Origin: Candidatus Aenigmatarchaeota archaeon
GTDB lineage: Archaea; Aenigmatarchaeota; Aenigmatarchaeia; QMZP01; QMZT01
Direction: 5' to 3'
DNA length: 5,427 bases
NCBI GenBank assembly: GCA_030634615.1
Contig: DAOWAL010000087.1
Coordinates: 1-5,427, forward strand
The notes beneath the pieces are model-generated. The model did no database searches, was not told where the DNA came from, and saw only the letters and a program-made list of their open reading frames with translations. The position numbers and the translations under genes are program-made. This document shows positions 1,370-3,308 of the stretch, piece after piece (the first letter of the stretch is position 1; every line of letters begins with the position of its first letter).

Positions 1370-1962
1370 TTATGAAAAGACACGTTGTCTTTATTGATAA
1401 ACCAAAAGGACTTACTAGTTTTGATGTTGTCGAAAGAGTAGGACAAACTCTTGGTTTTCAAAAAGCTGGACATACAGGAACACTTGATCCTAATGTTACA
1501 GGTCTTATGTTAATAGCTCTTGGCGAATCAAGAAAAGCCATGCCGGTTCTTATAGGTCTTGACAAAGAATACGAAGGGACCATGCTTCTTCACAAAGATG
1601 TTGAAAAAAAGGACATAGAAAAGGCGTTTAAAAAATTCACAGGCGAAATAATCCAGCTTCCTCCGGTAAGATCAAGGGTTGCAAGAAAGGAGAGGAAAAG
1701 GACTGTTCATTTTCTTAAAATCAAAAAAATAGATAAAAGGGAAGTGCATTTTGTTGTCAATTGTCAGGCAGGGACATACATAAGAAAACTTGTGCACGAT
1801 ATAGGTGAATTTCTCAGTTGCGGCGCACATATGGCATGGCTTAGAAGAACAAAGATAGGACCATTCGATATAAAGCAGGCTGTTGAACTCAGCAAGGTTT
1901 CTGCCAAAGATATGGTTGAACTTGAAAAAATACTAAAGAAGATCGATCTTAAATCAGTATAA
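1366..1962 (+). CDS. cbf5: TruB/Cbf5-type tRNA/rRNA pseudouridine synthase, catalytic domain only
   Basis: In archaea Cbf5 is the catalytic subunit of H/ACA RNPs and can also make pseudouridine 55 in tRNA. The 198 residues hold the whole TruB catalytic fold: DKPKGLTS (11-18), GHTGTLDP (35-42) with catalytic Asp41, KEYEG (67-71), QLPPVRSRVARKER (97-110), CQAGTYIRKLVHDIG (133-147) and AHMAWLRRTKIGPF (154-167). The N-terminal extension usual in archaeal Cbf5 is missing, as is much of the linker before PUA. The frame stops at TAA 1960-1962 just where PUA begins, but PUA sequence continues in the same frame downstream. This is either a broken or unusually expressed full-length cbf5, or a working truncated enzyme. 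The start is ATG 1366 in the ATGA overlap with eS1; ATG 1372 is possible. A purine-rich stretch precedes it. Confidence 0.85.
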   Translation: MIMKRHVVFIDKPKGLTSFDVVERVGQTLGFQKAGHTGTLDPNVTGLMLIALGESRKAMPVLIGLDKEYEGTMLLHKDVEKKDIEKAFKKFTGEIIQLPPVRSRVARKERKRTVHFLKIKKIDKREVHFVVNCQAGTYIRKLVHDIGEFLSCGAHMAWLRRTKIGPFDIKQAVELSKVSAKDMVELEKILKKIDLKSV

Positions 1963-1974
1963 GCTACCTACTAA

Positions 1975-2142
1975 TCGATTCAAAAAATAAGAAACGGTTC
2001 ACCACTTTTTCCCGAGTACATGACTAAAAAAGCAGATGTATGGGACGATGAGGTTGTCGGAATTTTTGATAAATCGGGGAACATAATAGCTCTTGGCAGA
2101 GCATCCGGTAAAAAGATCAAAACGAGCAGGGTTTTCAATTGA
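1975..2142 (+). pseudogene. Separated PUA-domain remnant of Cbf5
   Basis: The phase matches the upstream cbf5 gene, and this stretch of 55 codons ends at TGA 2140-2142. It starts SIQKIRNGSPLFPEYM, which resembles the PUA opening (S)AVDAICNGAPL of archaeal Cbf5. It continues with VVGIFDKSGNIIALGRA and closes with KTSRVFN, the usual PUA strand and end motif. Two TAA codons (1960 and 1972) separate it from the catalytic domain. Deleting the five codons from the first TAA through the second would restore an alignment of normal length. PUA binds the H/ACA guide RNA or the tRNA acceptor region, so its separation matters for function. The only ATG inside is at 2020, which would drop the first PUA strand. 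No good ribosome site is seen. Conservation of both halves suggests a recent break, a splicing or recoding event, or a sequence error. Confidence 0.65.
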
Positions 2143-3218: not shown

Positions 3219-3308
3219 ATGCCGTGTGGAAAGAAAAGAAAAAGAAAGAAGATGAAGAAACACAAACTCAAAAAGAGAAGAAAGAAGATGCGACACCGAA
3301 AGAAATAA
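3219..3308 (+). CDS. 29-residue basic protein, mS38/AURKAIP1 (COX24)-like ribosomal protein candidate
   Basis: The 29-codon ORF starts MPCGKKRKRKK and continues with the core KMKKHKLKKRRKKMR, ending RHRKK. More than half of the residues are Lys or Arg, with two His and one Cys. The core matches my recollection of the C-terminal motif of mitochondrial small-subunit protein mS38 (AURKAIP1/COX24, roughly KMKKHKxKKRRKR). The MPxGKKRKR start matches small COX24-domain proteins annotated in Bacteroidetes. mS38 lies in rRNA near the decoding site, so a ribosomal role is the likeliest guess. A TATA box about 25 nt upstream and a T run just downstream frame it as a single-gene unit. It could instead be another tiny ribosomal protein such as an eL41 relative. 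The existence of the gene is firmer than the family call. Confidence 0.65.
   Translation: MPCGKKRKRKKMKKHKLKKRRKKMRHRKK

Follow-up and report, generated by a model that had tools for sequence, protein, structure and literature searches.

Two in-frame stop codons in the cbf5 gene of a draft Aenigmatarchaeota genome: a probable local consensus error

The analyzed window, 5,427 bases long, is the complete contig C139 of draft genome G000 (1.1 Mb in 142 contigs, 83% complete). In addition to cbf5, it encodes the end of a DHHA1-domain protein, ribosomal protein S3Ae, an EamA transporter (on the strand opposite cbf5), tRNA-Thr, and an ArsA-family ATPase. The S3Ae gene terminates at TGA 1367-1369, which shares bases with ATG 1366, a candidate start of cbf5; the public protein P0001, described below, begins at ATG 1372. 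Positions 3219-3305 could encode a very basic peptide of 29 residues (MPCGKKRKRKK...), with two TAA codons after it. This peptide has no Pfam match and presumably resembles small basic ribosomal proteins. A contig scan of public genomes with Cbf5, which may omit records near the window's own genome, shows four Aenigmatarchaeota loci at 64-70% protein identity and two bacterial loci at 33-35%; the nearest named relatives are the Candidatus Aenigmatarchaeota metagenome-assembled genomes at 64-70%. A literature search of a limited library found no paper that treats Aenigmarchaeota and Cbf5 together.

The Cbf5/TruB catalytic part is found at positions 1372-1959 of the forward strand. It belongs to the Cbf5/TruB family by its TruB catalytic domain, scoring 86.1 bits with Pfam TruB_N (cut-off, 27.3 bits) and 55.4 bits with TruB_C_2. 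All of its 196 residues are identical to residues 1 to 196 of P0001, and its identity to other relatives reaches 70%. Downstream, on the same strand, are a first in-frame TAA at 1960-1962 (residue 197; Glu in P0001), TAC (Tyr) at 1969-1971 in place of Asp200, a second in-frame TAA at 1972-1974 (residue 201; Glu in P0001), and TCG (Ser) at 1975-1977 in place of Ala202. The remainder of the PUA domain, at 1978-2142, is identical to residues 203 to 256 of P0001 and ends with TGA 2140-2142. The initial annotation had described the two TAA codons and a PUA-like segment that stays in the same phase up to this TGA, and the sequence confirms that description. With two TAA codons, the catalytic and C-terminal PUA domains do not share one open frame in the window contig, whereas in P0001 they do.

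The Pfam PUA model matches the window segment with 18.9 bits (E value, 0.0015), under its 24.8-bit cut-off, and the score of intact P0001 (22.4 bits) is also under that cut-off. A C-terminal profile, made from the last 75 residues of 25 relatives, matches the window frame (with X at the stops) at 73.9 bits (E value, 2.1e-23). This match spans both stops, and the PUA half of the window is, by homology, real beyond chance. A separately started PUA protein was considered and rejected: downstream of the stops, no common start codon occurs before ATG 2020, which lies 15 codons in, inside the domain. The confidently predicted structure of P0001 (mean pLDDT, 95.4) places the region of the stops in strand 195-198 and at the beginning of helix 200-207.

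The link between the two parts shows little variation in length. In P0001 numbering, the stretch from L194 to G209 comprises 16 residues in 42 of the 44 aligned proteins (44 of 120 listed homologues), 17 in one, and 18 in another; the window, as it stands, also has 16 codons over this stretch. In a codon-by-codon comparison of ten loci (the window and nine relatives), the IRNG motif is likewise preceded by equally many codons in all ten. Thus, nothing has been inserted, and the stops sit on ordinary gene positions. The proposal in the initial annotation that removal of the five codons at 1960-1974 would give a normal link is therefore wrong, and its option of a tiny in-frame insertion conflicts with the same comparison. 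Judging from the predicted structure, cutting residues 197 to 201 would halve strand 195-198 and strip helix 200-207 of its first two residues. Compared to the Aenigmatarchaeota form of the archaeal Cbf5/TruB with PUA (~260 residues), the window is alike in the catalytic part, the in-phase PUA, and the link length but differs by the two in-frame stops and two residue changes, located in the first PUA strand and helix.

P0001 is the top match when the protein collection is searched with the catalytic half of the window. This protein of 256 residues is recorded with one contig, a longest contig of 20,084 bases, and three member sequences. The window frame read from 1372 is identical to it in 252 of 256 residues, and all four differences (Glu197/stop, Asp200/Tyr, Glu201/stop, and Ala202/Ser) are confined to six codons, with no residue change in the next 54 codons. 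For each of the four window codons, the sole single-base route from the P0001 residue is G>T at codon position 1, which implies four changes of one type within 16 bases (window positions 1960, 1969, 1972, and 1975). Two other window proteins have identical counterparts in the collection, the 315-residue ArsA in P0121 and the 282-residue EamA in P0241. Their longest contig is also 20,084 bases, and from this shared value we infer that all three records come from one contig. The sources of P0001, P0121, and P0241 are marked "-", which normally denotes the protein encoded by the window itself. Across the three window proteins, 4 of 853 residues differ and none of the other 849 does, in a comparison made at the protein level, where synonymous differences would go undetected. 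Four differences among 853 residues would fall within six codons by chance with a probability of ~1e-6 (2 million random draws).

The commonest residues among 43 relatives are Asp at position 200 (28 relatives), Glu at 201 (20 relatives), and Ala at 202 (29 relatives). Since P0001 has the same residues at all three positions, the window rather than P0001 is very likely the changed sequence, most clearly at 200-202. No second cbf5 copy was found in genome G000, the sole match being the window itself. The 18-base patch of the cbf5 cluster does not recur elsewhere in the window at up to 3 mismatches, and DNA of an intact cbf5 copy was not found among the viral contigs searched.

A second suspicious stop is found in a purF-like gene of the same genome (locus L052, contig C7), where a lone in-frame TGA at 7074-7076 is followed by a C-terminal part that continues in phase. 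The four relatives read have Leu (L087, L088, and L090) or Val (L089) at this position, and the only one-step route to TGA from a Leu codon is from TTA, by T>G. This gene came from a coding-potential scan, with set length and score limits, that detects same-frame splits only and covered 41 of the 142 contigs (333,384 bases, 30%). In 10 of its 12 same-frame neighbor pairs, a start codon lies no more than 8 codons from the beginning of the second frame, and these look like ordinary neighbors; the two pairs without one are cbf5 and purF. The purF stop is of another type than those in cbf5; its presence in the draft fits an uneven consensus quality without proving it.

The two stops in cbf5 probably represent a local consensus error, made in sequencing or assembly, in this draft contig, because four changes of the same type are packed into 16 bases and there are none in the 849 other residues. 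An otherwise identical intact copy whose differences form one short cluster is on record at the protein level. Packed same-type changes, a short contig, and 54 unchanged codons after the cluster make up a pattern that thinly covered or biased reads could give. The cell would then carry an intact cbf5 sequence, poorly supported or biased reads would have given the four wrong bases, and the intact enzyme would be an ordinary PUA-bearing pseudouridine synthase, probably acting without Nop10 and Gar1 in this order. The stops are present in this record but likely absent from the organism's usual sequence, and cbf5 itself is probably an ordinary gene. However, several observations speak against an error. 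The Glu at position 197 of P0001 is itself rare, being found in 1 of the 43 relatives, with Ile and Val in 11 each. The purF stop, if also an error, would be T>G and not G>T. The "-" that stands for the source of P0001 counts on this side as well. A truncated enzyme is biologically possible, given that 4 of 33 relatives are naturally PUA-less. Sequence-linked and read-end Illumina errors have been described (PMC3622629 and PMC4787001), but the available portions of these papers show no such G>T pattern.

Of the five options listed in the initial annotation, an assembly or sequencing error has the strongest support, and recent pseudogenization is the surviving rival; insertion is contradicted, and intron, recoding, and bypass are not supported. 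It is very improbable that the stops lie within a short archaeal intron removed from the mRNA by the splicing endonuclease. Such introns are known from the same gene, cbf5, in Crenarchaeota, and archaeal tRNA introns may be as short as 11 nt, but the crenarchaeal introns, in the part of the report available (PMC2738675), interrupt the codon of a catalytic residue, another place in the gene. The window has no extra sequence relative to its relatives and no fitting motif. A scan of positions 1920-2019 for bulge-helix-bulge structures yields two matches, of 87 and 77 nt, neither near 15 nt, against 1.13 expected by chance from shuffles that preserve letter content only. The 87-nt match is in frame and covers both stops, but its excision would cost 29 codons of conserved sequence, and an in-frame match covering both stops also arises in 16.8% of letter shuffles. 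Ribosomal readthrough or bypass of the two TAA codons, yielding the full protein, is just as improbable. The frame and the length are preserved across both stops, as such decoding would require, but recoding does not explain the accompanying changes of Asp200 to Tyr and Ala202 to Ser, and the 28 PUA-bearing relatives that were read are all free of stops at this place. General reassignment of TAA is out: of 228 long frames in the contigs sampled, 114 end with TAA, which is therefore an ordinary stop in this genome. The public protein, identical otherwise, has sense codons at both positions, which leaves no need for splicing, bypass, or recoding. What looks like a remarkable split gene in a draft genome from a metagenome, inviting stories of introns or recoding, can reduce to four bases, and such genes can be tested quickly by searching public proteins for an intact copy that is identical elsewhere.

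Unlikely, though well ahead of splicing and recoding, is a genuine cluster of mutations that arose very recently in a single strain. It would truncate Cbf5 at the border of the catalytic and PUA domains and leave the PUA half as a fresh remnant, with the catalytic part sufficing and Pus10 covering tRNA position 55. A Cbf5-type match is found in 47 relatives, and the tails of 33 of these were read (29 loci and four stretches). Four of the 33 end near the first stop of the window, one (G011) is cut by the contig end, and 28 continue into a C-terminal part that is of PUA length by reading and was not individually scored. The four short forms, L037 in G009, L034 in G021, L029 in G025, and L028 in G033, represent natural PUA-less Cbf5/TruB proteins. 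They resemble the window in that their frames end at about its first stop, but no PUA was found beside them in six frames of the available DNA (only ~300 bases downstream in G021), whereas the window keeps an undecayed one. The 28 relatives that retain the C-terminal part include the five from the window's own family whose Cbf5 is most similar. The one-type changes, four in 16 bases, of which two are unneeded for truncation, in the absence of any other difference in 853 residues, also argue against truncation. Slightly more doubtful is the fuller version of this account, in which a single clustered G>T event has only just severed Cbf5 at the domain border in a living strain, so that the window would capture, under way, a loss of PUA already complete in several relatives, in an order where neither Nop10 nor Gar1 is detectable.

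The distribution of the partner proteins counts in favor of a real truncation. Nop10 is found in 12 of the 61 genomes searched, all of them outside the order (12 of the 20 others in the wider class), and in none of the 41 genomes of the order, G000 included; all four archaeal controls were positive. Gar1 was found in none of the 61 genomes, which is weak evidence of absence, as its profile recognized three of the four archaeal controls, of which two passed the cut-off, and missed one. Neither H/ACA partner of Cbf5 was therefore found in G000, with the 83% completeness of this draft and the weak Gar1 profile to be kept in mind, and Cbf5 in this order may act without them. According to a review (PMC7991803), tRNA position 55 can be modified by archaeal Cbf5 in the absence of a guide RNA, with the PUA domain gripping the CCA end, and in Haloferax, Pus10 is the main enzyme for that position. 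Since these roles are known and a Pus10 frame is found on contig C80 of G000, loss of the PUA domain might be tolerated. The retention of Cbf5 in an order where neither Nop10 nor Gar1 is detectable, and where some members lack the PUA domain, may have a more lasting interest than the stops themselves. Cbf5 is kept in most of the 41 genomes of this order (G000 to G040), despite the lack of a Nop10 match in any of them.
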